Part shown: in pieces, positions 3,500 through 40,447 of the stretch
How positions within the stretch are numbered: the stretch's first letter is position 1
How the letters are laid out: each line of letters opens with the position of its first letter
From: a virus
Virus record (IMG/VR): IMGVR_UViG_3300045284_000413
Span: 1-42,915 of that record
Strand: one strand, 5' to 3'
DNA: 42,915 nt
Notes under the pieces: generated by a model
Told to the model about the DNA's origin: nothing
Database searches by the model: none
What the model saw: the letters and a program-made list of their open reading frames with translations, nothing else
Made by a program: the position numbers and the translations under genes

Positions 3500-3526
3500 T
3501 CTAGTCTCCAGTGGGCCGCGTGGCTC

Positions 3527-12950: not shown

Positions 12951-12956
12951 GCGCCA

Positions 12957-13021: not shown

Positions 13022-13030
13022 GCCGTTGGT

Positions 13031-13230: not shown

Positions 13231-13238
13231 AGGGCGCT

Positions 13239-13430: not shown

Positions 13431-13432
13431 GG

Positions 13433-13894
13433 TCAGGCTCCCTTCACGGTCAAGACAATTTGAAATGCGGCGAGCGCTGCAGACTGGGCGATCTGAATAT
13501 CCTGCACGATGGTCGTGCGCGTGGACCCTGCCGGGAAATCCGCCACGATGGCTGTGAGGGATTGCCCCAAGCTATTGATCAGCGTCACGATTTGCGGCGG
13601 CGTCGGCGTGCCAGGCTGCCAGGTCGCGAGCACACTATTGAACTGGCGGCCGGCATCCACGGCGGGCAAGAGTTTTTGATTGAAGGCCTGCGATTTCGCG
13701 AGCGTCCAGCCGGGCACGGTCTCCACCTTCGAGGAGCCCGCACAGGAGGAGAGGCCGCAGAGGGCCATCTGCTCGCCGCTGTGGATGTCATTGAGCACTT
13801 CAAAGATGGAGCGATCGGCGGCGACGGCGATGTGTCGCGTACTGGCGCTGCAGCCCGCGAACGTGAACGCGAGGATGAGAATCAATCGCTTCAT
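13433..13894 (-). CDS. phage lipoprotein
   Basis: A 153-residue protein with a type II signal peptide MKRLILILAFTFAGC (lipobox FAGC, cleaved before Cys15) and a soluble helical domain (QAFNQKLLPAVDAGRQFNSV). It would be lipid-anchored in the cell envelope, which fits an outer-membrane spanin-like or superinfection role, but the length exceeds typical Rz1. ATG at 13894 overlaps the holin-like gene stop (ATGA). The longer frame to 14176 lacks coding features upstream. Confidence 0.75.
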   Translation of the reverse strand: MKRLILILAFTFAGCSASTRHIAVAADRSIFEVLNDIHSGEQMALCGLSSCAGSSKVETVPGWTLAKSQAFNQKLLPAVDAGRQFNSVLATWQPGTPTPPQIVTLINSLGQSLTAIVADFPAGSTRTTIVQDIQIAQSAALAAFQIVLTVKGA

Positions 13895-14157
13895 GGTGTC
13901 CCTTTCGCAGCGTTCTGCGCCACCTGTTTCACACTGCCCGCAGGAAAAATCGTACTGCCATCTTGCGTCCCGGTGATCGGACTCACCCGCGCGCGCAACA
14001 GCCACGCAATCACGACGGCGACCAATGAATTGATTGCGGAGGTTTGCGCCGTCGTCAACTGGACCCCGAACGCCAAGAGCAGGATGAGCACGCCCTGCAC
14101 GACCACGCCAAGGCCCGCGACCAAGGTCCAGACCGGCTCGTTTTTGAGTGGATTCAT
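13891..14157 (-). CDS. holin-like small membrane protein
   Basis: An 88-residue protein starting MNPLKNEPVWTLVAGLGVVV, with two hydrophobic segments (to LLLAFGV and SLVAVVIAWLL) separated by a short polar turn, then RARVSP and a polar tail. The NEPxxxL...LLLAFG...RxRVxP arrangement is common in small phage membrane proteins annotated as holins. Its position next to a lipoprotein supports a lysis role. Not proven. Confidence 0.68.
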   Translation of the reverse strand: MNPLKNEPVWTLVAGLGVVVQGVLILLLAFGVQLTTAQTSAINSLVAVVIAWLLRARVSPITGTQDGSTIFPAGSVKQVAQNAAKGTP

Positions 14158-14306
14158 TTGTTCCCCAAGGCCGCATTCAGTTCGGCCAAATGTTTCGCTC
14201 TGGAGGCCGGATACCCGATGAGTACCGCGTCATAAATCATCCGATTACTCCAAACCACGTTGTTCAGATCCGTGGTCCTCCCCGCCTTCGCATACGCCGC
14301 GACCAC
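14154..14306 (-). CDS. hypothetical protein, start unresolved
   Basis: The C-terminal part reads VVAAYAKAGRTTDLNNVVWS and NRMIYDAVLIGYPASRAKHL and clearly looks like coding. Its TGA overlaps the next ATG. The open phase extends upstream (KPYDEQQGAAFQAD before the GTG at 14306), but no ATG, GTG or TTG is found there before a stop near 14440. Either the GTG at 14306 is used (50 residues), a rare ATT near 14343 starts it, or it is reached by frameshift from the gene ending at 14348, or there is a sequence error. Confidence 0.5.
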   Translation of the reverse strand: MVAAYAKAGRTTDLNNVVWSNRMIYDAVLIGYPASRAKHLAELNAALGNK

Positions 14307-14347
14307 ATCTGCCTGGAATGCGGCGCCCTGTTGTTCGTCATAGGGCT

Positions 14348-14770
14348 TTAGAGCAATTTGACATTGGTAGGCGCAGGCGGCAGTACCTGCTGGTTGAAAG
14401 AATTGGTCGGCGTACTCCTCAGGGATTGCAGCCCCGTGCTATCAATCGCCACCAGCGTCGAGAAATAGCCGAGCCCGTTCGGCAACGCACTCAACAGCGT
14501 CGAGCTCAAGGTCGCCAGACAGACGCGCCCCGCGTTCGCCGGATCGTCAAACAGGATCCGCGTGGGGTTCGTGAGCGTGGCCGGAATCGCGGGCGCGACC
14601 TGATTGCAGGTAAAGGCCGATGCTTGATAGGTATTGCTCGTGACCGGACTCCCCACGGACGGATTGACGCCCGCCGCGAAGACGTCCTGTCGATAGCTCG
14701 TGATCTGTGCCTCCACGCGCGAGGCACTGATCACCATCAGCACGAGACACAGCACCGAGAATCGTTTCAT
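14348..14770 (-). CDS. secreted beta-sandwich (Fn3/Ig-like) protein
   Basis: A 140-residue protein. Signal peptide MKRFSVLCLVLMVISASRVEA, cut before Gln. The mature part has alternating strands (TRILFDDPANAGRVCLATL, YFSTLVAIDSTG) and ends PPAPTNVKLL, like the linker after an Fn3-like domain. ATG at 14770 has AGGAG eight bases upstream. It is probably exported to the periplasm or surface. Such proteins in phages can bind sugar or alter the envelope, but this is inference. Confidence 0.68.
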   Translation of the reverse strand: MKRFSVLCLVLMVISASRVEAQITSYRQDVFAAGVNPSVGSPVTSNTYQASAFTCNQVAPAIPATLTNPTRILFDDPANAGRVCLATLSSTLLSALPNGLGYFSTLVAIDSTGLQSLRSTPTNSFNQQVLPPAPTNVKLL

Positions 14771-15023
14771 GTAGCTGCTCCTGCGCGCGTCGGCGCGCAT
14801 CCTGTTCGCCGAGTTGCTGTAAATCTGCCACCGTCACGCCGAGCGCATCCGCGATCACTTGGCGCAAATAGCGATGCGCCTTTTCTGTCCGAATCGGGCA
14901 GTGCCGCGGCACGCGCTGTCCCCATCGGAGTTTCCCCGCACAGCGTACACAGCGCATAGACCGCAACGAAATCGGTCGGCCACAGTCACGGCACTGCGCC
15001 GCGCCTTTAACTTCCGCCATCAT
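14547..15023 (-). CDS. zinc-ribbon protein overlapping the secreted protein gene
   Basis: The first 85 residues are convincing: AQCRDCGRPISLRSMRCVRC is a four-Cys zinc ribbon, followed by GQRVPRHCPIR and a helix HRYLRQVIADALGVTVADL. The frame then runs 224 bases into the secreted protein gene in another phase, where it no longer looks like coding. Either the overlap is real, or a frameshift removed the true stop. ATG at 15023 overlaps the end of the upstream gene by 17 bases. It may bind DNA or RNA. Confidence 0.5.
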   Translation of the reverse strand: MMAEVKGAAQCRDCGRPISLRSMRCVRCAGKLRWGQRVPRHCPIRTEKAHRYLRQVIADALGVTVADLQQLGEQDARRRAQEQLHETILGAVSRADGDQCLARGGTDHELSTGRLRGGRQSVRGESGHEQYLSSIGLYLQSGRARDSGHAHEPHADPV

Positions 15024-16014
15024 TGAACCCGCTCGGCCGGATGGACATCGCCCCAGGCCCGCTCCCATCCGGGACAAGTGGTGTATTCATGAGCGCATCG
15101 GTATACGCCACGCCTTGCGCTTCGGTCCATTCGTCGCGGAAGGTTTTCGTCGTCGTGTTCTCGAAGTCATACACCCCGTCCGACAGGATCGGGTAGCCGT
15201 GAAACCCGCCCATCAAGCGCCGCGTCCAGTCCGCGATCCGCACTTGCCCCTGGACGAGCCCGCCGTCAAGCCAGCCGCTCACCTGGAAAAAGTACGCATT
15301 CAGGTTCGCGTCGGCTTTCGCGCGCGCCCAATCGACGAGGCCGTAACTTTCCGTCCCCGGATCTTGCGCCGTGAAATGCACGGCCAGCTTGGCGTTCGGC
15401 AAAAGCGCCCGCGCTTGCGTCAACACACCGAGCACCTTGTCGGCGCTTTGGAGCACGCCGTTGATCTCGTAGATGCCCATACACCAATCGATGAGGTCCG
15501 CGGCCTGGGGGACGACGGCCTGCAGGTATGAGAGGTCCGGCCCGCGATCGTCTCGGAAGGCCACGATGGTGGTGAGTTTAGCCGCTTTCATCTTCTGCAA
15601 GCCACGACGCAAGAGCGTGAGGTCCAGCGGAATCTCGGGATAGCCGGGATACGGGATACCACTCACTTGGATCTCGCCGTGGTTGTAGCCACGCAGGAGG
15701 GTCTGCCGGATCATTTCATCCTGCCGCGCCTCGGGTTCGTTGAGGAAGTTCGGCCACCAGAGCCGATCACCGAAGAGCGCCTTCGGAATGCAGAAGGCCC
15801 CACGGAGCGCATGGACATCCCCGGTCACTGGCGGAATGACCCCGAGTTCCGCCTGCAATTCGCGCCAATGTTTTTCTCGGGAGGCCGCGTAGCCCAGCGT
15901 CTCGGCATCGAACTGCATGCGCGCACAATTCACGCCGATGCGCCCGACATCGGTCGTGAGCTTCAGACAGTCCAGCGTGAAGGCGATCACTTCCGCTTCA
16001 TCGTACGGAACCAT
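15007..16014 (-). CDS. TIM-barrel, glycoside-hydrolase-like phage protein
   Basis: A 335-residue protein. Segments such as IPLDLTLLRRGLQKMKAAKL, TTIVAFRDDRGPDLSYL and LIDWCMGIYEINGVL look like alternating strands and helices of a TIM barrel with acidic residues at strand ends, as in glycoside hydrolases. I recall related proteins in other phages but not a proven substrate. In this module it may cut a cell-wall or surface glycan. GGAGGGAGGG upstream is an excellent ribosome site. No signal peptide is seen. Confidence 0.65.
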   Translation of the reverse strand: MVPYDEAEVIAFTLDCLKLTTDVGRIGVNCARMQFDAETLGYAASREKHWRELQAELGVIPPVTGDVHALRGAFCIPKALFGDRLWWPNFLNEPEARQDEMIRQTLLRGYNHGEIQVSGIPYPGYPEIPLDLTLLRRGLQKMKAAKLTTIVAFRDDRGPDLSYLQAVVPQAADLIDWCMGIYEINGVLQSADKVLGVLTQARALLPNAKLAVHFTAQDPGTESYGLVDWARAKADANLNAYFFQVSGWLDGGLVQGQVRIADWTRRLMGGFHGYPILSDGVYDFENTTTKTFRDEWTEAQGVAYTDALMNTPLVPDGSGPGAMSIRPSGFNDGGS

Positions 16015-16107
16015 CTACCCTCCCTCCAAGGACCAGATCACCCAGCAGCCGAGCACGATCGCGACGGCGAGCAGGACCGCCCAACTCACGGGCGTCAACC
16101 GACGCAT
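16015..16107 (-). CDS. 30-residue membrane microprotein
   Basis: MRRLTPVSWAVLLAVAIVLG followed by CWVIWSLEGG. A single hydrophobic helix with a positive N-terminus. The last codons (GGAGGGAGGG) are at once the ribosome site of the next gene, so the peptide and the site are co-encoded. Could be a lysis accessory peptide. Confidence 0.6.
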   Translation of the reverse strand: MRRLTPVSWAVLLAVAIVLGCWVIWSLEGG

Positions 16108-16109
16108 GG

Positions 16110-16472
16110 TTAGAGATTCGCTGCGGCGGCATTCACGGCCGCATCAGCCGCTGTGACGTTCGCCAGCAGCGTATCCGCCGACGCGCCGAGCGCGGTCAGA
16201 TCCGCCGCCGAGGCTGCCCCGCCCGCCGCCACTTGCGCCTGGAGGTCGGCGATCTGCTGCTTGAGGGCACTCGCGCCCGCCTGTAATTTCGTGATTGCGG
16301 CGTTGATGTCGGAGTCTTCTTTGGTCACCGCATCGGAGAGGGTCTGGAATTTCGCTTGCAGGTCGGACAGTGCGGTCATGATCTGCTCCTGGTGGCTGAT
16401 GAGATGATCGAGTCGGCAGATCAGCCGATCTTCAGACTCGTTGTGCGCGTCAGGAAATCGCGGGCGGTTCAT
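16110..16472 (-). CDS. coiled-coil protein
   Basis: A 120-residue protein. After NESEDRLICRLDHLISHQEQ comes a long heptad-like helix (LSDLQAKFQTLSDAV, ALKQQIADLQAQVAAG), then Ala-rich sequence. This is typical of small phage coiled-coil proteins near lysis or tail genes. ATG at 16472 overlaps the upstream TGA. Confidence 0.7.
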   Translation of the reverse strand: MNRPRFPDAHNESEDRLICRLDHLISHQEQIMTALSDLQAKFQTLSDAVTKEDSDINAAITKLQAGASALKQQIADLQAQVAAGGAASAADLTALGASADTLLANVTAADAAVNAAAANL

Positions 16473-22506: not shown

Positions 22507-23421
22507 TTACAACCCCACACTGACCCGCGCGAGTTGATCCTGACAGTCGGCCACTAAGGCATCGTACTGATAGAGTTCCTGCTGCAACGTACTGATCGAC
22601 ACGCGCCGGACTTTGATGGTGCCGTCATCTTGTGGTTCCTGCACCGTCGTCCACGGCTTCCATCGGGCCGCCGTCTTGAGCGCGAGCACGGTCCGTTCCC
22701 GCTTCACTTGCGCTTTGTGGAGATCCCACTTCAACGGATCGAGTTGCCGACGCGGCGAGGGTTCAAAGGCATACTGAAAACTCGCGGACAACACTGGCGA
22801 CGACACCGGCAGCACGAGGCAGCCGTCCTGCGATTCATAGCGCCGCAGGCCATCCGCCACCGTGATCGTCCGCTTCGTGCGCCCGAGCAGACACCCCAAG
22901 AGAAATTCAAAGTTGGGCCGTTGGTCGATGTACTCCGCTTCGGTCGAGAGATGGATGCCGTAGATGTGAACTTCCCGCGCCCCACGCAGAATCGCCAACG
23001 CCAGCATCCAGGCGGGCGTACTGGTGAAGTACCGTCCAAAGTGCGCTTCGACCTCCGCTTTGGGAAATGGCCGCGCCATCGGCCACGTCGCGGACGCCGG
23101 CAGTTGCTGCGCATGGTCGGGATGCAGCCAGATCGGAATCGTCTGCGTCGCCAGCCAGTCCAGATGCTGCGCGGGTCGCACGTATTTCCCGAGCGGGATC
23201 TGATGCGCGTAGATCGCCACTTTCTTCCCAGGCTCTGGCATCGGCAACAGATGAAAGTGATCGAGCGGATGGAGATCGAAGAACTCATCCGCGCGCTCGA
23301 AGCCGTCGATCAGGTAGGAATCGTTCAAGGCCCACAGCGGAAAGTCCACATCTTTCCACGGGGCATCCCGCCACGTCGCGGCGGTTCCGACAATCACGAG
23401 ACGATCGAGTGGGGTCATCAT
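22507..23421 (-). CDS. Rossmann-like phage protein, GT42/DUF115-like (possible glycosyltransferase)
   Basis: A 304-residue protein. LDRLVIVGTAATWRDAPW, then FPLWALNDSYLIDG, FFDLHP and the segment FTSTPAWMLALAILRGAREV with HIYGIHLS correspond to the nucleotide-binding plan of GT42 sialyltransferases and DUF115/Maf-type glycosyltransferases (a GxxxS-like first loop, TS-G/A-xxMLALA, and a YGI strand end). Related proteins are widespread in phage structural regions without known function. The C-terminal part is helical. With CMP-sugar genes in the same genome it is a candidate for the transfer step, which is inference. Confidence 0.55.
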   Translation of the reverse strand: MMTPLDRLVIVGTAATWRDAPWKDVDFPLWALNDSYLIDGFERADEFFDLHPLDHFHLLPMPEPGKKVAIYAHQIPLGKYVRPAQHLDWLATQTIPIWLHPDHAQQLPASATWPMARPFPKAEVEAHFGRYFTSTPAWMLALAILRGAREVHIYGIHLSTEAEYIDQRPNFEFLLGCLLGRTKRTITVADGLRRYESQDGCLVLPVSSPVLSASFQYAFEPSPRRQLDPLKWDLHKAQVKRERTVLALKTAARWKPWTTVQEPQDDGTIKVRRVSISTLQQELYQYDALVADCQDQLARVSVGL

Positions 23422-28885: not shown

Positions 28886-29392
28886 CTACTCTGCCCTCGT
28901 GGCGATGAGATATTCGGAAGCCTTCATCAGTAAATCCTCGCGATCCTTGAAGTGGCCGAGACCACTGTTACAGGTGGAGCACAACAGCCCACGCACACGC
29001 TTTGTTGTATGACAATGATCGACCTTCACTTGTCGATGATTGGCAAACGGCTTTAAGCAAATGCGGCATCGGCCCTCCTGCAGCCTGAGTCGTTCAAGAA
29101 ACTGCTCATGCGTGATTCCGTATTTCTTCCACCGTCGATATTGTGAGGTCGCCGCGCTATATCGACCGCGGTATCTCTCCTGTAGTTCCTTGGCGCGCTG
29201 CGGGTTTTTCGCTCGCCAGAGCCGCCCCTTTTCCGCATTGAGTCGCCGAAATTCTTCCAGCCCGAGACGTTCGATCTTACGACGGTTATGGGCCTTACGA
29301 ATGTGCCCCCACTCCTTCGGATGTTCCCGTCGCCATTGCGTCTGATATTCCCGCTGATATGAACGCCTGTCATCGATGTCCTTAAAAGGCAT
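28886..29392 (-). CDS. endonuclease VII-type (homing) nuclease
   Basis: A 168-residue protein. A basic N-terminal half (RREHPKEWGHIRKAHNRRK) precedes the catalytic fold YGITHEQFLERLRLQEGRCR, ICLKPF, VDHCHTTKRVRGLLC, and STCNSGLGHFKD. This is the recombination endonuclease VII family (zinc-binding His-Me fold). Copies stranded among capsid genes are usually free-standing homing endonucleases, not the gp49-type resolvase. It has its own extended -10 promoter just before the ATG, and AT-richer DNA. Confidence 0.88.
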   Translation of the reverse strand: MPFKDIDDRRSYQREYQTQWRREHPKEWGHIRKAHNRRKIERLGLEEFRRLNAEKGRLWRAKNPQRAKELQERYRGRYSAATSQYRRWKKYGITHEQFLERLRLQEGRCRICLKPFANHRQVKVDHCHTTKRVRGLLCSTCNSGLGHFKDREDLLMKASEYLIATRAE

Positions 29393-29398
29393 TCATTC

Positions 29399-29407
29399 AT
29401 TATATCA
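29399..29407 (-). promoter_or_regulatory. extended -10 promoter of the endonuclease VII gene
   Basis: Minus strand TGATATAAT: perfect TATAAT with a TG extension, ending seven bases before the ATG at 29392. Transcription would start at the start codon. No -35 is visible. Its position overlaps the 3' end of the neighbouring structural gene. Confidence 0.6.
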
Positions 29408-29905
29408 CTCTGCGCGAGTCGAGCTTCTGAAGCGGATGTAGCCCATCACGCTCCACGTCACGCCGCCCATCGGCGTCGAACCCGAACTGACCACGCGCAA
29501 CGAGGATCCCGCCGGCACCCACGCGCCTTCGTATTCGGCGGCATCGCCGCTCACGGTCGCCCACGTGGAAAAACTCGTGGAGGTTGTCGGCGTGTTGTTG
29601 AGCGTCGCCAACGTCGCGGCGCGCGTCGATCCGTTCCCCGGCGCTTCGAGGTTGGGATTGATCGTCGTCGTCCCGCCTTCGGTTTTGAGAATCAGCGCGT
29701 TGGACTGCGAACTACAGGTCGAGCAGGCCGCCCAGAACTCCGTGATCAGCCAGTCCTCATAGGGCGGAACCGTCCGATTGCTGTTGACGTTGGTCCCCGC
29801 AAAGGCGGCCGTCGTCGCGCCCGAGGATCCCGAGGTCGCCGGCCCGTAGGACCAGAGACAGGTTTTGGCCCCGTAGACGGGACCTTTCATTCTCGTGATG
29901 CCCAC
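29405..29905 (-). CDS. hypothetical structural protein after the capsid gene
   Basis: A 166-residue beta-rich protein (Thr, Ser, Gly) with a Cys cluster CSTCSSQSN. It follows the major capsid gene with a folded intergenic RNA between them. GTG at 29905 has AAGGAG seven bases before. Could be a head decoration or appendage protein. Confidence 0.62.
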   Translation of the reverse strand: MGITRMKGPVYGAKTCLWSYGPATSGSSGATTAAFAGTNVNSNRTVPPYEDWLITEFWAACSTCSSQSNALILKTEGGTTTINPNLEAPGNGSTRAATLATLNNTPTTSTSFSTWATVSGDAAEYEGAWVPAGSSLRVVSSGSTPMGGVTWSVMGYIRFRSSTRAE

Positions 29906-30005: not shown

Positions 30006-30926
30006 TTACGCCCCGGGTGACCCATACGTTCCTTGCCACGCCCAGGCCCCCACGGAGAACCGATGCCGGACTTTGAAAATCCGGTTGTTCGTCCGGGGAT
30101 CTTTGTCCATTGGATCGAGCGTGATGGGCACGCGGCGGTAGAACGTCAGCGCGTGATTGCCTTTGTTCGCCGCCACGAGGAACCACGCATCGTTGTCCGT
30201 CAGACGCGGATTCACGATGATCTCCCAGGACCGCCGGGCTTTCATCGGGTTGCGATCGTTGTCGGCGCTCGCCGGCAAGCCGACGCTGTTGAGCAACCGA
30301 TCGGCCAGGAACTCCAAGGCCGGCGGCACGTAGAGAATCCAACTGTTCACCGGATTCGCCAAATGCCCGGCTTCGTCTTTCTGGTCGGTCTGCAGATCGA
30401 TCAGCGCCTGGGTGAGGGAGGTCGCCGAGAGATCCGCCGCCGTGGAGAGCGTATTCTTCGCCGTGCCGCCGCCCTTCAAGAGATGGGCACTGTTGAACAA
30501 CGACAGCCCGTCCGGCGTGGTTTCGGTCGAGAACCCGTTGTTGAACGGATTCGCCGCCCGGCCCTCTTCGACGTATCGCGCCGAAAACGCCAGCCAGTCT
30601 CCTGCGCGTGAGAGGATGTTTTCGGCATCGTCTTCGAGCGCGGTTTGCGTCACCTCGAACATCAGCCCGTTTTCCGTGTGGGTGAAGTCCTTGGTGTTGC
30701 CCTGCCGCAGGAAGTCCATCGCGTACGTGTCGCCTTCGCCCTTGGTCTGGGTATCCCCAAACGGGACGTAGGTCACGACGCGCTCGAATTTCCGGTCGGA
30801 GGTTTTGACGTTGAAGAGATCCGTGTAGATGCGCGCCAGCTCTTGGAGTCGATCCTTCATGATCGCCTGAAGGGTCTTGTCCACATTGTCATAGAGCGCA
30901 TCAAAGACGCCGCGTGTTTGGCTCAT
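30006..30926 (-). CDS. major capsid protein (Mu gpT-like)
   Basis: A 306-residue protein. The pattern FDALYDNVDKTLQAIMKDRL, KFERVVTYVPFG, MFEVTQTALEDDAENI, LFNSAHLLKGGG and a final VRHRFSVGAWAWQGTYGSPG follows the Mu-like major head subunit family with the HK97 fold. AGGAG precedes the ATG (30926) at good spacing. It is flanked by a decoration-like gene upstream and by a structured intergenic RNA downstream, fitting high expression. Confidence 0.88.
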   Translation of the reverse strand: MSQTRGVFDALYDNVDKTLQAIMKDRLQELARIYTDLFNVKTSDRKFERVVTYVPFGDTQTKGEGDTYAMDFLRQGNTKDFTHTENGLMFEVTQTALEDDAENILSRAGDWLAFSARYVEEGRAANPFNNGFSTETTPDGLSLFNSAHLLKGGGTAKNTLSTAADLSATSLTQALIDLQTDQKDEAGHLANPVNSWILYVPPALEFLADRLLNSVGLPASADNDRNPMKARRSWEIIVNPRLTDNDAWFLVAANKGNHALTFYRRVPITLDPMDKDPRTNNRIFKVRHRFSVGAWAWQGTYGSPGA

Positions 30927-30936
30927 TGATTAGCTC

Positions 30937-31515
30937 CTAGACAAAGAAGGCGAGCAGTCGCCCGGTGGAGAGGGACGAGTTCGGATCGTGCGTGCAGAAG
31001 CGGAACGTGACGAGGCCGCCCGAATCCCCGGAGTTGTCCAGCAACCCGGTCACGACGACGCGCGGGATCGGCGTGGCGAGCGAACTGGCCCCGCATTCCA
31101 CGAGATCGATGTTCAGCGTGGAATCCCGGTAGAGCCCTTTCATCACGCCGACCATCGTGGAGTTCAGCAGCCCGTGCCCCGAGCGCGCCTTGAACTCGAC
31201 GTTGGGATTGGCTTCCCAGACGGGAATCAACGTGCCCGCTGTGTTCGTGCTGGAGGGACCGCCAGCCGCCGCGCCAGGGCCTTCCGCTGCCACGCCGACG
31301 ACGGCCGTGGAGATCAGACAGCCCGAACTCACTGAGGACGGCGTGATCTGCGACCAGCCGTTCGTGGTGTTCTGGTCGAGCCCGACGACCGTGCCGACGC
31401 GAATGATCTGGGACGAAATGCCGGTCGAGAGGGGCATCAGCCGCGTAGGGAAGCCTCCCCACGGGGATCGATACGGGCGCATGATGTCGCCCGAACTGAG
31501 GACGAAATCGGTCAT
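30937..31515 (-). CDS. capsid decoration/head protein (putative)
   Basis: A 192-residue protein with small beta motifs (SQIIRVGTVVGLDQNTTNG, TAGTLIPVWEANPNVEFKAR, GVMKGLYRDSTLNI) as in head decoration or stabilisation proteins that precede major capsid genes. The ribosome site GGGAG six bases before the ATG (31515) can be buried in a hairpin in the leader, which suggests translational control. Confidence 0.68.
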   Translation of the reverse strand: MTDFVLSSGDIMRPYRSPWGGFPTRLMPLSTGISSQIIRVGTVVGLDQNTTNGWSQITPSSVSSGCLISTAVVGVAAEGPGAAAGGPSSTNTAGTLIPVWEANPNVEFKARSGHGLLNSTMVGVMKGLYRDSTLNIDLVECGASSLATPIPRVVVTGLLDNSGDSGGLVTFRFCTHDPNSSLSTGRLLAFFV

Positions 31516-31739: not shown

Positions 31740-32813
31740 CTAGCTTACTCCTGTGCCCGCAGGAGTCAAGGACGTATCCAGCTTCGGCCCAGGGAGGATG
31801 ATCGTCGTATCCGGCAATACGGACTGCATCATCGGGATTTCCCCGAGCCGCACGACATGAAAGGACAGATGGTGGCGCAACGCGATCTGTTCTGAGAGTT
31901 GCCGATGCGTGATCGCCGTGCCGCCCCATTCGGTGAAAAAGCTCATCGAGGATTTCCCGAGGCGCAGCGCCAATTGCGACATGCCCCCGTACGTGCCAAT
32001 GAAGCCTTGCGCGTGCGCGAGGACCGCACTCTGCACCAAGAGATTGGTTTCCACCGTCAAGGGCCAGAGCCGACTCAGGCGCAAGAGGTTCGGATGATCG
32101 GGGACCGGACAATCCAGATGATCATCGGTCGCAAACGGACTATCGAGGACCACCACAGGACTTTGATCCGCGAGTTTGAGCAAGACCGCCGCCGTCGCTT
32201 GTTTCGCGGCTTTATCGGGATACGGCCATGTTTCCCGACTGTAGAACCGCGCCGCGACAAACACCTCGGGTAACACCAACCCATCCGGCAGCGACGGGAT
32301 CGAGAGTCGGCTGTAGACCGTGCGGGCCCCTAACCAAGTCGTCCCACGCCATCCAGTCCAGAACGGGGCCAGTAAGTGAAACATCCACGCCGGATGGAGC
32401 ACGTGATACTTGCGCCCGAGTTTTAGGGTGTCCACGGCATCGCGAAGCACCTGTCGATCAAACGCCGTGACCGTGACTTGCTTCTGAAGGCCGGTACGAT
32501 CCGCTTGCACGTGATTCTCGATGCGGACCTGTTGCGGCGTCCGCATCGCGTAGAGTTCGATCCCCTGGGGACAGGCGTACCACGAGCCGGCCCCGCCTCG
32601 GGTGATGGGGATCAGCCGCTCCGCCGCGAGGCCCAAGGCCTTGAGATGATCGAGAAAGGGAATCCAGTACAACACCTCGAAGCCCACTTCGCCGCGCCAC
32701 GGCCCGACAAGAATTGGCCAGTCGCTATGGATCAAGCGTTGCAGATAGAGCGGCCACGCCAGATGCCGCCAACTGGACCGATGCGTCGGGAGGGTCGTAT
32801 GACGTGACTTCAT
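31740..32813 (-). CDS. glycosyltransferase-like protein
   Basis: A 357-residue protein, last gene of the sugar cassette. ILVGPWRGEVGFEVLYWIPF near residue 35 and the late block FIGTYGGMSQLALRLGKSSM resemble a GT-B-type transferase, the second being the usual nucleotide-sugar binding region. The short KSRHTTLPTHR start is basic. ATG at 32813 overlaps the NeuA-like gene stop (ATGA). The donor sugar is not evident; a CMP-nonulosonate would fit the neighbours. Confidence 0.62.
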   Translation of the reverse strand: MKSRHTTLPTHRSSWRHLAWPLYLQRLIHSDWPILVGPWRGEVGFEVLYWIPFLDHLKALGLAAERLIPITRGGAGSWYACPQGIELYAMRTPQQVRIENHVQADRTGLQKQVTVTAFDRQVLRDAVDTLKLGRKYHVLHPAWMFHLLAPFWTGWRGTTWLGARTVYSRLSIPSLPDGLVLPEVFVAARFYSRETWPYPDKAAKQATAAVLLKLADQSPVVVLDSPFATDDHLDCPVPDHPNLLRLSRLWPLTVETNLLVQSAVLAHAQGFIGTYGGMSQLALRLGKSSMSFFTEWGGTAITHRQLSEQIALRHHLSFHVVRLGEIPMMQSVLPDTTIILPGPKLDTSLTPAGTGVS

Positions 32814-33547
32814 GCAGCCACCAACACCGCAGGGAGTGTCACCACGCCGGCCGCCACCCACCGCTCCGCCGTCGCGAAGTCGTCTTCCGTGTTGATGTCG
32901 AGCCAAGACGGCCCGCTGCATTCGTACGCACGGATCCGGTCCCCGCTAATCGAGTGCTGTGCGGTGACCGTGATCGTCCACGCCATCTCCAACCCAGCGT
33001 TTTGCACCACGAACCGTTTCAGCGTCTGGGACGGCCGCGAATGCCAATACGTCCCATCGGATTCTTTGTACGGTAAGAGCGGCAACAACAGCCCATCCCT
33101 CAGCACCTGAAACATTTTCGCGGGATGTTCGAGGACGGGACGGACGGCGCGGATCGAATCAACGTGTGGTTCGTCCTGTAACATCCGCCACGCGACGCGG
33201 ATGTCCGTGGGGGATCGAAACGGCGTCGTCGGGCGCAGAATCGCAAACGCCTCCGGCTTGGGCGTGGTCTGGCCGAACCAGCGCAGACAGTCGGTGACCC
33301 AGACTATATCGGCGTCCTCATCCGCGAATCCTCTGGCGCGAAGATGCGCATGGTCCGCGCCGTAGTCCTTCGCAATCCGACTCGTGGTCAAGTCTTCGGT
33401 GGAGACAACGACCGACGCAAAGATGCCGCTCGCCTTCGCAGAGGCGATGCTATACGCGAGCAAGGGATGCCCCGCCAAGAGGCGCGTGTTTTTCCCTGGA
33501 CAGCGTTTCGAGCCGGCCCGCGCCGGAATCAGCGCGACAATCGTCAC
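32810..33547 (-). CDS. neuA: CMP-N-acylneuraminate cytidylyltransferase-like (NeuA family)
   Basis: A 245-residue enzyme predicted to join CTP with a nine-carbon nonulosonic acid (sialic, legionaminic or pseudaminic type), giving the CMP-activated sugar. The start VALIPARAGSKRCPGKN carries the catalytic R-x-G-S-K-x(5)-N nucleotide motif; RPTTPFRSPTDI and WLDINTEDDFATAE are family blocks. GTG at 33547 overlaps the cupin stop (GTGA). Length is normal. Bacterial paralogues include PseF, LegF and NeuA, and the exact sugar cannot be told. Confidence 0.86.
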   Translation of the reverse strand: MTIVALIPARAGSKRCPGKNTRLLAGHPLLAYSIASAKASGIFASVVVSTEDLTTSRIAKDYGADHAHLRARGFADEDADIVWVTDCLRWFGQTTPKPEAFAILRPTTPFRSPTDIRVAWRMLQDEPHVDSIRAVRPVLEHPAKMFQVLRDGLLLPLLPYKESDGTYWHSRPSQTLKRFVVQNAGLEMAWTITVTAQHSISGDRIRAYECSGPSWLDINTEDDFATAERWVAAGVVTLPAVLVAA

Positions 33548-33888
33548 GCCGGCACCCGATCGTCGAAGACGGGCGTGCTCGCCTCGAAGAACACACACTC
33601 GGTGTCGGCAAGCACCTGATGGATCACGCCTGGCGCAATGTGATAGCTCTCGCCAGGTCGCATCGGCACTTCCGCAATGGCCCCATCCGCGTCTTTCCAG
33701 CGCACCGTGGCTCGGCCAGACACCAGATGAAAGGTTTCATCTTTCCTGACGTGATACTGCATCGGGCCTTGACTGCCGGCGCGCATCGTCAGGATCTTGC
33801 CGATGTAGTCCTTCGTCTCGGCGATCAGCAGTTCCTGGCCCCACGTCTTCGGCCCGAGCTCGCGCGGCTCGAATCGTTCTGGGATCAC
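33544..33888 (-). CDS. cupin-domain protein of the sugar cassette
   Basis: A 114-residue single cupin. KTWGQELLIAETKDYIGKIL, then MQYHVRKDETFHLVSGRATV and PGESYHIAPGVIHQVLA give the two cupin motifs (H-x-K-x-E and H-x-x-x). It resembles the small cupins found beside nonulosonic acid genes and mannose-6-phosphate isomerase-like domains. It may bind or isomerise the sugar. GTG at 33888 with AGGAG seven bases upstream is preferred to earlier starts. Confidence 0.8.
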   Translation of the reverse strand: MIPERFEPRELGPKTWGQELLIAETKDYIGKILTMRAGSQGPMQYHVRKDETFHLVSGRATVRWKDADGAIAEVPMRPGESYHIAPGVIHQVLADTECVFFEASTPVFDDRVPA

Positions 33889-34823
33889 ACGCGCACTCCT
33901 GACTCCTGTTCGGCTTGGGTGCCGATTTGCCATTTCCCGTCCACGAGCCAGCGGCGCATCTTCGAGATCGGTGCGTACTCACTGGGATAGAATTTCTTCA
34001 CCCCATCACCGAGGGCCTGATGCGCCCGGTCGAGATCCCGGCGCAGTTTCCGCAATCCGGATGGCTCAATCGAGAACGCATGGTCGGTCCCTTTGTTCGC
34101 GCGATTGCTCGTGAAATGCTTTTCGATGATCCGGGCGCCGAAGGCATAGGCCACCATCGCCATCGCGATCCCTGAGTCATGGCCCGACCAGCCAATCACC
34201 AACTCGGGATACCGCTGTTTCAGCGTGACGATGCACCGCAAATTCAGTTCGCCGAAGTCGCGGACCGGATACGCCGCCGTGCAGTGCAAGAGCGCCAACG
34301 GCACATGCGGCGCGATGAGATTCACGGCGCGATCAATATCGTCGGCCCCGCCGCCACCTGTCGACAGAATGACGGGCACCCCCAACCCGGCCACGTGCCG
34401 CAACAGCGTGGAATCCGTCAAGCCGCCACTGGCGATCTTAATTGCCGGCACGCCGACGCGCATCAAGCACTCGGCGCTCGCTTCATCGAAGGCCGTCGCG
34501 AAGAAATCGACGCCCGCGCTTTTCGCCACACACCGCAAGCTCACGTACTGCGCTTCATTGAGTTCCAACGCATCCCGATGGGCCCCGTAGGTCGCGCCGA
34601 AGCTGTGCGTGTGGGCGTACGGCTGCGCGCGCATAGCTGGGGTATACAGCGTGGCGTTGTCCCGCTTCTGGAGTTTCACCGCGTTCGCCCCGCAGGCCGT
34701 CGCCATCCGGATCAGACTGGCGGCGGTCTCGACCGATCCGGCATGGTTGTGCCCAAGTTCGGCCACGAGATACGCTGGGGCATCGTCCGCGATCCGGTGC
34801 CCATTGAGAATCAATTCAGACAT
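33885..34823 (-). CDS. neuB: N-acetylneuraminate synthase-like enzyme (NeuB family), without SAF domain
   Basis: A 312-residue enzyme that would condense phosphoenolpyruvate with an acylated hexosamine to make a nonulosonic acid. Visible blocks are VAELGHNHAGS, NAVKLQKRDN, IKIASGGLTDSTLLRHVAGL, VILSTGGG, LLHCTAAYP, IGWSGHDSGI and IIEKHFT with GTDHAFSIEP. Bacterial NeuB has about 340-350 residues with a C-terminal antifreeze-like SAF domain that closes over the partner active site. Here the chain stops at KMRRWLVDGKWQIG plus a short tail, so SAF is missing. A KDSA-like or altered reaction is possible. Confidence 0.85.
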   Translation of the reverse strand: MSELILNGHRIADDAPAYLVAELGHNHAGSVETAASLIRMATACGANAVKLQKRDNATLYTPAMRAQPYAHTHSFGATYGAHRDALELNEAQYVSLRCVAKSAGVDFFATAFDEASAECLMRVGVPAIKIASGGLTDSTLLRHVAGLGVPVILSTGGGGADDIDRAVNLIAPHVPLALLHCTAAYPVRDFGELNLRCIVTLKQRYPELVIGWSGHDSGIAMAMVAYAFGARIIEKHFTSNRANKGTDHAFSIEPSGLRKLRRDLDRAHQALGDGVKKFYPSEYAPISKMRRWLVDGKWQIGTQAEQESGVRV

Positions 34824-35664
34824 GGACCGTCGTCTGCTGCAGAATCTGGATCACGCGGTCCCAACTGTAGACCGACGCCGCCTTGAGGCCGCCCGCGCGG
34901 ACTTCGCGACACTGCGCGGCATCCGGCCACTCCGTCAACTGGGCAAGATCGAAGACGCTGGTCGCATGCAGGAGCTCCACTGGCGAGTCCGCGTCCAAGT
35001 TCGTAATCACCGGCGTCCCCGCCTCGAGCGCGGCCCAGAGGGTCGTATTGTTCGCGCGGACGGCCGGATGGTAGAACAACGCGATCATGTGGGCCTCGCG
35101 GATTTCTTTCGCCAAGGCGTCGTCAGCGAGAAAGCCGAGGTAGCGCAGATGGTCCCCGAACACGCCGCGCATCAACGTTTCGTTCTCTGCCGTCGTCACG
35201 TCCCAGGGATGCCCCTCGTGAATCCCGGTGGAGACACAGACCGTATACGGCGCGTGCAGGCGGTCGAGCACGTCGCGCAGTCGCTCGAAGTGCGTCACTT
35301 GGAACTTGTGGGCAAAACCAAATGTGAGCACCGTCACCCCTGGCCGGTCCGCTTTCCCTCGCAGCGTAGACGGGCACCCCAGATCCTTCGCGTACCAGAC
35401 CTGCTCCGCCTTCGCGCTCACTTCAGGAATGCCGGCATCGTGCCAGAGGACGGAGAACCCCCCGGACACGTGCATGGTTTTCAAGAGTGAGATCGACAAT
35501 GGACTGAGTTCAGAGGCTTTGAGCGACAGCAATGGATGCGTGGCCTGACCAGACGCAAAGAGACCGTAATGTGGGACACTGAGTTTCGCGGCGAGTTGCT
35601 GATTGAACTTGGTTACTCCGCACACGTCAGCTTTCGTATGGTACGAGACTATGGCGTCAATCAT
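34816..35664 (-). CDS. GT-B glycosyltransferase
   Basis: A 282-residue protein. IVSYHTKADVCGVTKFNQQL is the usual first strand/loop of GT4-like transferases. The C-terminal domain has YTVCVSTGIHEGHP, IREAHMIALFYHPAVRANNT and TLWAALEAGTPVITNLDADS, the donor-binding block (E-x-x-A/G-x-G-x-P-V-I). It lies between a methyltransferase and the NeuB-like gene, overlapping both. Acceptor unknown. Confidence 0.78.
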   Translation of the reverse strand: MIDAIVSYHTKADVCGVTKFNQQLAAKLSVPHYGLFASGQATHPLLSLKASELSPLSISLLKTMHVSGGFSVLWHDAGIPEVSAKAEQVWYAKDLGCPSTLRGKADRPGVTVLTFGFAHKFQVTHFERLRDVLDRLHAPYTVCVSTGIHEGHPWDVTTAENETLMRGVFGDHLRYLGFLADDALAKEIREAHMIALFYHPAVRANNTTLWAALEAGTPVITNLDADSPVELLHATSVFDLAQLTEWPDAAQCREVRAGGLKAASVYSWDRVIQILQQTTVHV

Positions 35665-36350
35665 ACGGCGCGCTCGTAGACCAACACGCGATGCTTCTGC
35701 TGCCAGTCCATCTTTTCTTCCAGGTCGGCACGCCGCCTGAAGCCTTCGAGCACGAACAACACGCGGATCAGATCCTTCGAGGGCAGCGTGATATGCGTCG
35801 GATCGAGATCATCATGCGTCTCGACACGCAAGAGATCGTGTTCGGAGGAAAAGCGCGTGGTCACATACACGAACGTCAGCGAACTGTGACAGAGATTCGT
35901 TACCGCCTGCCGAATCTGGCGCAACGTGAGATGTTCGAGCACTTCTCGGCAAATCACTAACTGAGCCCGCCGAGCGGCGCGACCCACAACGATGTCCAAT
36001 CGCTCGATGATGTCACCTCGCAACGTCACCGGCAACGGCCAAGAGGTTTCACGGTCCACGCCATAACAGTCTACATCGATGTCTCTCAGCATTCTCACGA
36101 GATGCCCCGGTCCGCAGCCGACATCGAGGACGCGATCACTCTCGTTGGAGACGAAGACATCCTTGATTAACTGTGGATGAATGCCTTCGATCTGCTTGCG
36201 TCCTTCGAAGCTGTAATCGGTGACGGGCTCCCAGGGCTTGGACGCTGGGCGCTGGGAGAGGACGAACGATTCAAACGCCGCGAGATTCTGCGCCCAATAA
36301 TCATCGGCATGGATCGGAACCGACGTGTAGACTTCGCCCTTGGTGATCAT
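35661..36350 (-). CDS. class I SAM-dependent methyltransferase of the sugar cassette
   Basis: A 229-residue enzyme. DRVLDVGCGPGHLVRML near residue 73 is SAM motif I; LVICREVLEHLTLRQIRQAV is the post-II/IV block seen in sugar O-methyltransferases and related enzymes; the end WQQKHRVLVYERAV is typical. ATG at 36350 overlaps the nucleotidyltransferase stop (ATGA). It probably methylates a glycan intermediate, inferred from neighbours. Confidence 0.78.
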   Translation of the reverse strand: MITKGEVYTSVPIHADDYWAQNLAAFESFVLSQRPASKPWEPVTDYSFEGRKQIEGIHPQLIKDVFVSNESDRVLDVGCGPGHLVRMLRDIDVDCYGVDRETSWPLPVTLRGDIIERLDIVVGRAARRAQLVICREVLEHLTLRQIRQAVTNLCHSSLTFVYVTTRFSSEHDLLRVETHDDLDPTHITLPSKDLIRVLFVLEGFRRRADLEEKMDWQQKHRVLVYERAV

Positions 36351-36727
36351 CCCAAGAACTCCAACCGCTCCCGGCTGCTCTTCGCCTGCGTCTCCACAAA
36401 GACGATCTGCGTCCCCGTCTCCATACACGCCTGCACCACATCCTCCGGCAACTGATCGATCCAGTCTTTCCCCTTGATCAGATGCGTCGGGCGATGATCG
36501 CGCACGGCATCCGCGAGCGTGGGCGCCGTACACACGAACTGCACGGGGCGTATCCGGCGAATCGTCTGCAATCGTTCGCTGTGCGATTGAAACGGCACGC
36601 GCCCTTTCGCCCGAATCGCGTCGTCACCGGCACAGCGCACCATCAACGCGCCGTACTGCCCGGCCGCGTCGAGGTACTGCACGTGCCCGTAGTGAATCGG
36701 ATCGAAACAGCCATCCGCGAGGACCAC
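36347..36727 (-). CDS. nucleotidyltransferase (RfaE C-domain/GCT-like)
   Basis: A 126-residue enzyme. VLADGCFDPIHYGHVQYLDA carries the HxGH motif (HYGH, residues 12-15), and KSSRERLEFLG near the end corresponds to the S-S/T-x-x phosphate block. It transfers a nucleotide to a sugar or polyol phosphate (heptose-1-phosphate, glycerol-3-phosphate or similar). It starts the sugar cassette. GTG at 36727 has GGAG upstream. Which substrate is used cannot be told from sequence. Confidence 0.82.
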   Translation of the reverse strand: MVLADGCFDPIHYGHVQYLDAAGQYGALMVRCAGDDAIRAKGRVPFQSHSERLQTIRRIRPVQFVCTAPTLADAVRDHRPTHLIKGKDWIDQLPEDVVQACMETGTQIVFVETQAKSSRERLEFLG

Positions 36728-36730: not shown

Positions 36731-37285
36731 TTACTCCGCAGTTTCCGGCAACTTCTCAATCCGCTCGTAGTTATCGGTGACGTTCATCACCCGTTTGACC
36801 GCTTCCATTTGTTCGGCCACCTGCGGCCCTAATTTCTTGCTCGCGGCTTCGAGCGCGCGATTCTGCTCGCCGGTCGTGTCGCGCATGAGTTCGAGATTCT
36901 TGCGCGTCTTGGCCAGTTGGAGGCGGTTCCAGAAGTCGCGCTCGATGCACATCAACACTTCCTGGCCACGCTCCCCGCGACAGACCCAGCCTTCGGGTGA
37001 TTGACTGTAGCTGCCGATCTGCTTCAGATCGATCACGTCCTCCGGCTTGACCCCTTTCCAGCCGTTTTCGCCCGCGATGTAGAAGCGATCGTGTTGCAGG
37101 GAGTTGTTGAACCAGCGAGGAAACATGGTCTTGTCGCGGAGGCGCACGGGTGCCGCCGGCATCCCAAACGGGTTTTGGAGGCGGCGCTCGAGGACGGAGA
37201 CCCGTAACGCCTCTGGCTGGTCTTCGATGCCCACATTGGCGGCGGCGACTTTCGCGGCGCGCTGTTCTCTGGTCAGTCCTGCCAT
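36731..37285 (-). CDS. conserved head-region protein
   Basis: A 184-residue protein. MFPRWFNNSLQHDRFYIAGE with NGWKGVKPEDVIDLKQIGSY and an EGWVCRGERGQEVLMCIER segment look like a small structural protein found near scaffolds in several phages. The C-terminus is a helix (LEAASKKLGPQVAEQMEAVK). GGGG precedes the ATG. Role unknown. Confidence 0.68.
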   Translation of the reverse strand: MAGLTREQRAAKVAAANVGIEDQPEALRVSVLERRLQNPFGMPAAPVRLRDKTMFPRWFNNSLQHDRFYIAGENGWKGVKPEDVIDLKQIGSYSQSPEGWVCRGERGQEVLMCIERDFWNRLQLAKTRKNLELMRDTTGEQNRALEAASKKLGPQVAEQMEAVKRVMNVTDNYERIEKLPETAE

Positions 37286-38401: not shown

Positions 38402-38540
38402 GTAACACCTCTAACTTCGCGTCAATTTCGCGCAGATCGCTGGCCGCGTCTTGGACGGCGTGCCAGTCTTGGGCCGTGACTTTACTGAGCAGATACGCTA
38501 CGAGTTGTTGCCGTAGGGCCGACAGTTCTTCAATCGTCAC
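38394..38540 (-). CDS. 48-residue helical protein
   Basis: VTIEELSALRQQLVAYLLSK, then VTAQDWHAVQDAASDLREID. Two amphipathic helices, probably a small head accessory protein. GTG at 38540 overlaps the co-chaperonin stop (GTGA). The longer frame to 38663 runs antisense-like through that gene. Confidence 0.62.
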   Translation of the reverse strand: MTIEELSALRQQLVAYLLSKVTAQDWHAVQDAASDLREIDAKLEVLHG

Positions 38541-38842
38541 AGGATCAACTCGTTCGCTTCCACCGTGACCCCTGCGCCAATCACGCATAAGAGATCGTCT
38601 TCGCGCATCACCAGATACCGTTCGCGCGCGTCGTCCAACAGAATTTCTTGGCCGCTTTGCCACGAAAAGAGCACGGTATCACCAACGGCCACGCCCTGCA
38701 ACGTCGCTTTCTCACCAAGAGAAACGACGGTCCCCAGTTGTTCCGGTTTCCGATGCTCAGAGAGATGCAGCCCGGCCGCGCTCATCTGCGGCGGTAACGT
38801 CGGCTTGATCAACACGCGATCCCCGAGTGGCTTGAGAATCAT
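38537..38842 (-). CDS. GroES-like co-chaperonin
   Basis: A 101-residue protein. MILKPLGDRVLIKPTLPP, MSAAGLHLSE, QLGTVVSLGE, VAVGDTVLFSW and REDDLLCVIGAG follow the cpn10 fold from end to end. No GroEL gene is present. As with T4 gp31 it would work with host GroEL, most likely to fold the capsid protein, and it lies next to the scaffold. The mobile loop has a Leu-rich QMSAAGLHL tip. ATG at 38842 overlaps the upstream TGA. Confidence 0.88.
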   Translation of the reverse strand: MILKPLGDRVLIKPTLPPQMSAAGLHLSEHRKPEQLGTVVSLGEKATLQGVAVGDTVLFSWQSGQEILLDDARERYLVMREDDLLCVIGAGVTVEANELIL

Positions 38843-39114
38843 CGGCCCCCACGCGACATGGACACCGGCCGCGCCTCCGTCGGCCCGAGCCGTTTCAATT
38901 CCTGCTCCGGCCACCCCACAAGCGCGTTGACTTCATCGGTCGCTAACGTGAGCACTTTCACGGCAAGTAACGGCTCCGGCCCCTCGACGGCGAGCCGCAT
39001 CCGTCGACCGTAGGCCGACGCGCCGTATTCCTGTCGGGCCTGCTCTTTGAACAAGAGCCACCCCGGCGACGTGATCAGATCCTGCAACGCCTCTTGTACC
39101 TCGCGCCCGGTCAT
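38839..39114 (-). CDS. hypothetical head-region protein
   Basis: A 91-residue protein: MTGREVQEALQDLITSPGW, then LFKEQARQEYGASAYGRRMR and AVKVLTLATDEVNALVGWPE. Helical, typical of small phage head proteins just after the portal. ATG at 39114 overlaps the FkbM gene stop. No named family. Confidence 0.66.
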   Translation of the reverse strand: MTGREVQEALQDLITSPGWLLFKEQARQEYGASAYGRRMRLAVEGPEPLLAVKVLTLATDEVNALVGWPEQELKRLGPTEARPVSMSRGGR

Positions 39115-39764
39115 GCGCGTCGACAGAGCCAGTTCGCATGACTGAGTGGCGTCCGCAGCCCAAGCACCCACCGCGCGGTCCGTTCCCAACTGACGAAGCG
39201 CCCGTCCACGTCGTAGACGAACAGTCCGGCATCGCGGAGCCGGGACCAGAGGGATTCCATACTCGCCCCGGCCGCCATGAGGCCATAGGGCCAGACTTCG
39301 AGAATCCAGGCCGGGCAGACCGTCAGGAGTTTCGGCGCCCCTTCCAGTACGTCGAGCTCGCCGCCCTGCACGTCAATCTTCACCAGGTCCGCGTACTCGA
39401 CCAGATCGTCCAGACGCGCCACCGGGACATCGGTCCGATCCGTCGCATGCATCACGGCCGCCGCCGCTTTGTAACAGGATGACCCGGAGAGCGGCTTCGT
39501 GAGATAGAACGGGCGCGTCCCTGGCGTATCGCCGCACGCCACGCCGTGGATCACGTCGGCGGTCGGAATCTCCGTCACGCGCGGTTCAATCGCGATCACC
39601 TTCCCGGTCGGTCCCACACACTGGCGCATCGTCGCGCAAATCTCACCTTCGGCCGCCCCGACATCGACCGCGACTTGGCCCGCCTGCAGGACCGTTTGTA
39701 CCATCGTATGCACGGACCCTTTACCCATGGAGCGCAGAAAGTCCACGTCGAGAAAGGTGCTCAT
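39111..39764 (-). CDS. FkbM-type methyltransferase
   Basis: A 217-residue enzyme. AVDVGAAEGEICATMRQCVG and GKVIAIEPR are SAM motifs; VKIDVQGGELDVLEGAPKLL is the FkbM signature. FkbM enzymes O-methylate sugars or other small groups. Being second after the portal it is likely expressed late together with the head genes. ATG at 39764 overlaps the preceding methyltransferase stop. Confidence 0.8.
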   Translation of the reverse strand: MSTFLDVDFLRSMGKGSVHTMVQTVLQAGQVAVDVGAAEGEICATMRQCVGPTGKVIAIEPRVTEIPTADVIHGVACGDTPGTRPFYLTKPLSGSSCYKAAAAVMHATDRTDVPVARLDDLVEYADLVKIDVQGGELDVLEGAPKLLTVCPAWILEVWPYGLMAAGASMESLWSRLRDAGLFVYDVDGRFVSWERTARWVLGLRTPLSHANWLCRRA

Positions 39765-40447
39765 CGATGGGCCAGCAGGCAGAGAATCTGCCGGACATGA
39801 TGCGGCTGTTCCGAATCGTCCACCACCCAATCCACGGGATCGACGTGCGGCCCGCTCCAGCACGCGCGCGCATCGCGGCGATAGTAGGCCACCTCGAGCC
39901 GGGGCGCATTCGTGAGACAGGCGAACGGCTCCAGATCCGTGACGTAGTGCCACTTGGGATGCCGCCACGGCGTCACCTTGAACGGCACCGAGATCACGAG
40001 TCGGCCTGCACACACCCGCCACAGTTCGGCGATCGCTCGCGTCACCGAGGCGGGATCGTCTTCCTTCGGCGCCAAGTAGCCGGAATTGTCGCAGCCGATG
40101 TGCTCGAGCGTCGACATGCACACGATCCGGTCAAAGTGGCGATCAGGAAACCGTGAGAGATCGCGCAGGTCCGCCGAGACGTATCGTCGATTGGTCTGTT
40201 GGTATTGGTCCTCGCTCTTGACGTTCTGCGTGAGATGCGTGACCTCGGCGACGGGCGGGACTTCCATGATCGCGTTACACGCGCACCCCGCATCGAGCAC
40301 GCGGCCGGGGTGATGCAGCCCCATCAGCCCTTCCGCCAACGGGAGTTCGATGCACCGTTCACTCTCCCATTTCAGCCCCTCGATCGGTTGGCCCCAGGCG
40401 AGTGGCGCGAACCGCACAGTACGGCGGGGTTGCTGCGCGACGGCCAT
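39761..40447 (-). CDS. class I SAM methyltransferase next to the portal
   Basis: A 228-residue enzyme. GRVLDAGCACNAIMEVPPVA is motif I in unusual form (GCACN in place of GCGxG), YVSADLRDLSRFPDRHFDRI and VCMSTLEHIG are later motifs; GRLVISVPFK precedes the C-terminal part. It resembles sugar- or lipid-directed methyltransferases of capsule and LPS clusters. It starts four bases after the portal stop. Confidence 0.75.
   Translation of the reverse strand: MAVAQQPRRTVRFAPLAWGQPIEGLKWESERCIELPLAEGLMGLHHPGRVLDAGCACNAIMEVPPVAEVTHLTQNVKSEDQYQQTNRRYVSADLRDLSRFPDRHFDRIVCMSTLEHIGCDNSGYLAPKEDDPASVTRAIAELWRVCAGRLVISVPFKVTPWRHPKWHYVTDLEPFACLTNAPRLEVAYYRRDARACWSGPHVDPVDWVVDDSEQPHHVRQILCLLAHR

Follow-up and report, generated by a model that had tools for sequence, protein, structure and literature searches.

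The virus record IMGVR_UViG_3300045284_000413 of IMG/VR, analyzed here at its complete length of 42,915 bases (the window), carries among its head genes a sugar cassette that includes members of the NeuB and NeuA families of nonulosonic acid enzymes. Seven minus-strand genes fill positions 36727 to 31740 exactly as a single overlapping run, in the order nucleotidyltransferase (NT), methyltransferase (MT), first glycosyltransferase (GT1), NeuB, cupin, NeuA, and second glycosyltransferase (GT2) (Table 1). The gene identities, coupling, and position proposed for this cassette in an earlier note, made by a model that read the letters of the DNA, are borne out by the gene coordinates and by Pfam and fold assignments. 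Its statement that all junctions show ATGA or GTGA coupling is slightly overstated, as such 4-nt overlaps are present at five of the six junctions and GT1 and NeuB overlap by 8 nt (ATGTCTGA). For GT2, the list of open reading frames (ORFs) gives a start at 32921; the ATG at 32813, which overlaps the NeuA stop, is a better fit.

The start of NT lies 3 nt downstream of the stop of the scaffold-side gene S184. At the other end, GT2 is separated from a decoration-like gene by some 224 nt in which no gene is called, and the capsid gene comes next. The cassette is thus positioned between scaffold-side genes and the major capsid gene, as had been claimed, but has no direct contact with the latter because the decoration-like gene intervenes. 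Chance can be excluded as the source of this arrangement because dozens of independent contigs show the identical gene order. A promoter scan gave nothing exceeding chance.

Table 1. Cassette genes, adjoining head genes, and a candidate transferase gene in the window
Feature	Positions	Strand	Basis or remark
NT, HxGH nucleotidyltransferase	36347..36727	-	GTG start; PF01467, 1.1e-11
MT, class I S-adenosylmethionine methyltransferase	35661..36350	-	PF13489, 4.5e-10
GT1, predicted GT-B glycosyltransferase, GT4/GT41-like C-terminal domain	34816..35664	-	AlphaFold2 fold
NeuB-family synthase without SAF domain	33885..34823	-	PF03102, 2.7e-67
Cupin, possible sugar (phosphate) isomerase	33544..33888	-	GTG start; PF07883, 2.7e-8
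NeuA-family CMP-sugar cytidylyltransferase	32810..33547	-	GTG start; PF02348, 1.5e-14
GT2, predicted GT-B glycosyltransferase, GT9 (heptosyltransferase)-like	31740..32813	-	AlphaFold2 fold
S184, scaffold-side gene immediately upstream of the cassette	36731..37285	-	Stays beside the cassette in the core clade
Decoration-like protein, Ser/Thr-rich, possible glycan acceptor	30937..31515	-	Ser plus Thr 21.9%; adjoins the capsid gene in relatives too
Major capsid protein	30006..30926	-	PF25209, 1.3e-16
Small Ser/Thr-rich (28%) protein downstream of the capsid gene, possible glycan acceptor	29405..29905	-	Clade-conserved
Tail-module gene, weak GT42 (sialyltransferase)-like motif, candidate CMP-nonulosonate transferase	22507..23421	-	Profile search

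Enzymes of sugar synthesis and activation

The synthase scores 227 bits against PF03102 (gathering cut-off 22.1), covers the profile from position 1 to 241 of 241, and aligns with the solved synthases 6ncs (4.9e-39), 1vli, and SiaC of the Protein Data Bank (PDB). In an alignment of 18 viral sequences, T110, K129, S132, Y185, S213, H215, H236, and D247 are invariant and E22 and K50 nearly so; the metal and phosphoenolpyruvate (PEP) residues, which in Neisseria meningitidis NeuB numbering are E25, K53, T110, K129, S132, Y186, S213, H215, H236, and D247, have aligned counterparts in the window protein. The protein has no PHROGs family match, and relatives are found in only 3 of 50,697 phage records, each less than 38% identical.

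A Pfam search finds no match to the C-terminal SAF (antifreeze-like) domain in the NeuB of the window, and the domain is gone from most of its relatives as well. As the bacterial homologue L060 has it (PF08666) and the phages L026 and L030 appear to retain a SAF-like tail, the loss probably happened within the phage family.

The cytidylyltransferase scores 54.8 bits against PF02348 (gathering cut-off 22.6) and matches the PDB NeuA structure 9ftb at 6e-16. Its N-terminal nucleotide-binding motif is kept, with R10, G12, S13, R15, K19, and N20 invariant. The C-terminal metal pair is D217-x-N219 in the window and likewise D-x-N in bacterial relatives, and A/S/N-x-D in several phages.

NT, MT, and the cupin all score above their Pfam family cut-offs. 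The HxGH motif of NT is invariant across 13 homologues, and MT is fused to NT in L060. The cupin also matches the D-lyxose isomerase family PF07385 (1.6e-4); its Q44, H46, E51, and H90 are invariant, so that the His/Glu/His metal set is kept. Loss of catalytic residues, an outcome that the earlier note named as telling against the cassette, was not seen in the NeuB, NeuA, cupin, or NT alignments, which keep key catalytic residues, in NeuA those of the nucleotide motif. In the relative L021, a DegT/DnrJ/EryC1 aminotransferase gene (positions 3411-4592, plus strand) occupies the slot of MT, and the tailoring step appears variable among relatives.

Description of the NeuB-like and NeuA-like proteins as sialic-type holds at the level of families, as their Pfam matches indicate. 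It does not extend to the sugar, which can be named neither sialic nor pseudaminic because NCBIfam equivalog cut-offs are missed throughout: by NeuB for N-acetylneuraminic acid (Neu5Ac) synthase (TIGR03569, 223.2 versus 399.65 bits) and pseudaminate synthase (TIGR03586, 176.9 versus 340.25 bits), by NeuA for PseF (TIGR03584, 102.8 versus 205.7 bits, E 2.1e-29), and by NT for heptose-1-phosphate adenylyltransferase (TIGR02199, rfaE_dom_II, 55.1 bits versus an equivalog-domain cut-off of 181.5).

Glycosyltransferases

Neither GT1 nor GT2 has a match in Pfam, PHROGs, or NCBIfam, and PDB sequence searches with their profiles returned nothing useful. Structure prediction, which had been suggested as a check on the claim of two glycosyltransferase genes, was run with AlphaFold2 and agrees with it, both proteins being predicted to adopt a GT-B fold with confidence scores (pLDDT) of 94.4 for GT1 and 91.5 for GT2. 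The modeled C-terminal domain of GT1 resembles GT4 enzymes (VIA-align Z about 15, a comparison that barely involves the N-terminal half), and its sequence aligns with bacterial homologues in an alignment of 35 rows. The GT2 model matches 3tov (Z 13.7), WaaF (13.3), WaaC (12.6), and TibC (4rap/4rb4; 11.0), the last a cytoplasmic protein glycosyltransferase. Its likeness to GT9 enzymes is one of predicted fold, as GT2 is at most 16% identical to TibC, WaaC, and WaaF and has neither a Pfam match nor a PDB sequence match by profile.

Another candidate is encoded in the tail module. The product of this gene has no match in Pfam, PHROGs, or NCBIfam; in a PDB profile search, the top eight matches are all GT42 sialyltransferases with weak E values of 0.11-1.2, and hhalign against one GT42 sequence gives 33% over 24 columns (controls, 0.1-0.5%). 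Members of its family are frequent near NeuB, in the head-tail modules of NeuB phages, and occur also in one NeuB-less relative. As a CMP-nonulosonate transferase, the protein is a lead only.

Conservation within the phage family

The core clade, defined by capsid proteins at least 72% identical to that of the window, comprises 30-odd IMG/VR contigs (72-84%). NeuB is present in all 13 of its long records (27 kb or more), and the shorter NeuB-less contigs checked (L018, L227) begin within the cassette. Gene order in the cassette is retained almost everywhere across these contigs. In two genomes an inversion parts the decoration-like and capsid genes from the cassette, which remains with the portal, GroES, scaffold, and S184 genes. 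An inversion between GT2 and the decoration and capsid genes in L046 and L047 (G001, G003) leaves the capsid and tail genes on the strand opposite the portal, scaffold, and cassette. Four core-clade contigs (L031-L034) seemed to be cassette-less upstream of the capsid gene; traced across the complete record, L031 and L033 have an intact cassette set apart by an inversion, and L032 and L034 are short fragments.

In a broader clade, with capsid proteins 45-60% identical, the cassette is found in seven of nine informative long records. There it may precede the terminase or portal gene (G024, G025), lie beyond the tail genes (G018, G022, G019), or be on the other strand (G021, G023, G026), with GT2 often left beside the terminase gene. 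Where the capsid protein is no more than 37% identical, the cassette is absent from all four long records. A further record, G056 (L277), taken at first for a NeuB-less relative with NT, MT, and GT1, was dropped as chimeric: at about 3.3 kb, next to a TypA-like gene, its GC content rises from 0.42 to 0.62, and positions 1-3300 of L277 are low-GC bacterial DNA joined to a virus record, a probable chimera in the public record.

The possibility, raised in the earlier note, that related phages carry these genes only as decayed fragments finds no support, as the copies in relatives are intact; apparent internal stops in GT2 of G021, G023, and L018 are in fact normal gene ends. Ratios of nonsynonymous to synonymous substitution rates for the closest pairs are 0.11 for NeuB, 0.14-0.17 for NeuA, and 0.07-0.15 for GT2, most values for distant pairs being near saturation and left out. 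The cassette is intact and under purifying selection. In the NeuB tree, the 29 sequences from the phage family cluster as one clade (SH-aLRT 95) in which core and broad members are mixed, a pattern that fits a single capture followed by exchange inside the family. The 59-kb viral contig L149, which has two copies of NeuB along with part of NeuA, is outside the head-module pattern.

A collinear operon in bacteria

A scan of bacterial genomes identified NeuB relatives at 51-59% identity. In Acidobacteria, Acidimicrobiia, and Tistlia these occur near polysaccharide genes in the order GT2-NT-MT-GT1-NeuB-SDR-ALDH-NeuA-transketolase or similar, where SDR denotes a short-chain dehydrogenase/reductase and ALDH an aldehyde dehydrogenase. 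Acidobacteria-type operons (L052-L062, L088, L098) are collinear with the phage cassette and encode homologous proteins. Unlike the phage, however, they keep SDR, ALDH, transketolase, a SAF-bearing NeuB, and polysaccharide neighbors, whereas in the cassette the cupin follows NeuB and GT2 comes last. The earlier note was right that precursor enzymes are missing, and comparison with the collinear operon specifies which; the missing steps must be supplied by the host or bypassed. One member of the phage family, G026 (L159), retains NeuB-SDR-NeuA-transketolase-GT2, an apparent intermediate between operon and cassette. Taken together, the phage cassette resembles a bacterial glycan operon that was captured and shed its precursor steps, with the direction of capture presumed.

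The bacterial NeuB-SDR-ALDH-NeuA-transketolase operon of L060 (positions 11082-16239, plus strand) may itself make an undescribed ulosonic acid; a search of open-access texts found no relevant paper on a NeuB-transketolase pathway. In a search for hosts, the capsid profile was absent from 12 bacteria with NeuB relatives and had one distant match in 396 Acidobacteriota.

Recurrence in unrelated phages

Association of NeuB with head genes is not confined to this family. In unrelated HK97-type phages, NeuB-SDR-NeuA-(transketolase)-FkbM lies between the genes for the large terminase (TerL) and portal (L155-L156, L158, L160-L166, L168, L169, L173, L175, L007), and protease and HK97 capsid genes come next where the contig extends. 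Other arrangements are TerL-portal-NeuA-NeuB-major capsid protein (L182-L185), TerL-NeuB-portal (L188-L192), and NeuB-TerL (L151, L153). Overall, of 68 viral NeuB loci, 42 have a detectable head gene no more than 3 kb away, in each case on the same strand; the markers behind this count are limited, and it is not set against a formal null. Because the phage groups occupy different parts of the NeuB tree, placement of NeuB by head genes probably arose several times. That nonulosonate biosynthesis entered the head modules of several unrelated groups of tailed phages independently, and that virions with such sugars are a recurrent, undescribed trait of environmental phages, is a tentative generalization to which we would give slightly less than an even chance.

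Virion, host surface, or another sugar

Comparison of these genomes suggests that the phage expresses a captured bacterial glycan operon with its head genes and glycosylates its own virion proteins, a reading to which we assign a probability of roughly 0.52. NeuB would condense PEP with a host-derived aldose, which the cupin may help to supply, to give a nonulosonic-acid-like sugar that NeuA would convert to a CMP sugar. A second activated precursor would be made by NT and methylated by MT. Transfer of the glycan would then take place in the cytoplasm, carried out by the soluble GT1 and GT2 and perhaps the GT42-like protein. Its targets would be virion proteins, the likeliest being the Ser/Thr-rich head proteins next to the capsid gene; the Ser/Thr content of such proteins is 28%, 22%, and 20%, versus a mean of 13%. 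The gene families, their conservation, the collinear block in bacteria, purifying selection, and recurrence beside head genes in unrelated phages are observed; we infer the direction of capture, the sugar, the pairing of transferases with donors, and the virion target.

Location in the head operon had been read in the earlier note as suggesting glycosylation of the particle or remodeling of the host surface. The capsid-operon position is limited to one clade and the cassette is elsewhere in distant relatives, so that its location in this genome alone is no proof of a virion target. The virion is nonetheless favored, because unrelated phages converge on placing NeuB in the head module, the transferases are soluble, and membrane serotype-conversion genes were not found. 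A simple hydropathy scan detects no membrane-like segment in any of the seven cassette proteins, at most two in any ORF of the window, and no polytopic transferase or flippase.

Several observations weigh against virion glycosylation. Loss of the SAF domain takes away a residue thought to contact the N-acetyl group, Arg314 of the meningococcal NeuB, and the NeuA clade shows D-x-N in place of the D-x-D of its meningococcal counterpart. The cassette of distant relatives is away from the head genes, at times on the opposite strand. An apparently complete relative, G057, has GT2 without NeuB, so GT2 is not tied to this sugar. The limits of the 3-kb count count here as well, and the place of the bacterial counterpart among polysaccharide genes, including in L061 a protein judged from its sequence to be WecA/MraY-like, suits a role in surface polysaccharide.

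This last point, together with the variable position in distant relatives, favors the main rival, in which nonulosonate added late to a host polysaccharide masks receptors and limits superinfection or re-adsorption of progeny. Such remodeling is also the customary reading of phage glycosyltransferases of lipopolysaccharide type, for example in pelagimyophages (PMC7029224). Yet genes for a membrane transferase, a flippase, or a lipid carrier are absent from the cassette. Remodeling, moreover, would be most useful early or in lysogeny, whereas the cassette is coupled by overlaps to genes for the head, which are late, and remodeling has no need of convergent placement by terminase, portal, and capsid genes. 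We consider it unlikely, if a serious contender. Rather less probable is that NeuB and NeuA make some other 3-deoxy ulosonic acid, not of the neuraminic, pseudaminic, or legionaminic type, from an unusual aldose, in which case a virion target would still be possible. The missed cut-offs for Neu5Ac and pseudaminate synthases, the loss of SAF from this and most related NeuBs, and the SDR-ALDH-transketolase neighbors in bacteria and SDR-transketolase neighbors in related phages are all in its favor; to our knowledge, SDR, ALDH, and transketolase have no part in the known routes to those three sugars. The strong overall NeuB and NeuA similarity and the retained PEP and metal residues argue against it. 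The idea that the cassette has no fixed role, being accessory cargo or recently inserted from a host, might draw on the bacterial relatives of the whole block and on its different positions between clades, but is largely refuted, and very improbable, given its presence in 13 of 13 long core-clade records, single old origin, purifying selection, and intact frames.

Neighboring genes

Two further minus-strand methyltransferase genes (39111-40121 and 39761-40447) are located between the portal and GroES genes, one with an FkbM-type domain (PF05050, 2.2e-13) and the other Methyltransf_11-like; the overlapping calls suggest that the true start of the FkbM gene is near 39758. A GroES-like co-chaperonin gene (38537-38914, minus strand; phrog_3188, 3.6e-14) adjoins the scaffold gene and is kept throughout the phage family. 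Among the small head genes, an ORF judged from its sequence to be Endonuclease VII/HNH-like (28886-29392, minus strand) resembles a homing endonuclease insertion.

Relation to known systems and implications

Glycans on mycobacteriophage capsids and tails are attributed to phage-encoded glycosyltransferases in the passages of PMC12619734 and PMC13313380 that cite Freeman et al. 2023. The phage described here differs in also carrying a sugar synthase and CMP activation, and its glycan is predicted whereas theirs was demonstrated. Mycobacteriophages with glycosylated virions do not, as far as we know, make nonulosonate. Flagellin glycosylation by FlmG in Caulobacter (PMC7591256) offers a parallel in which a CMP-nonulosonate route feeds soluble protein O-glycosylation, as is predicted here; no FlmG-like transferase was recognized in the phage, however, whose transferases resemble GT4 and GT9. 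Pelagimyophages likewise bear sugar-nucleotide and glycosyltransferase genes, rfaE among them, but often in a hypervariable tail-fiber region and read as O-antigen modification (PMC7029224), whereas here the cassette is fixed in the head operon. The polytopic transferase and flippase of gtrABC serotype-conversion systems have no counterpart in the window by the hydropathy scan. A search of the open-access literature found no paper tying nonulosonate synthesis to phage head genes or describing such decoration.

Glycosylated virions are already known. If the proposal is true, the presence of both a synthase and CMP activation in a head operon, and of a virion coat shared by a whole phage family, would be new, and recurrence in HK97-type phages makes the virion glycan testable in isolates. 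Such a coat would bear on how bacteria, protists, and animal immune systems recognize the particles, on how particles stick or survive in soil, and on the interpretation of mass and structure data for capsids.

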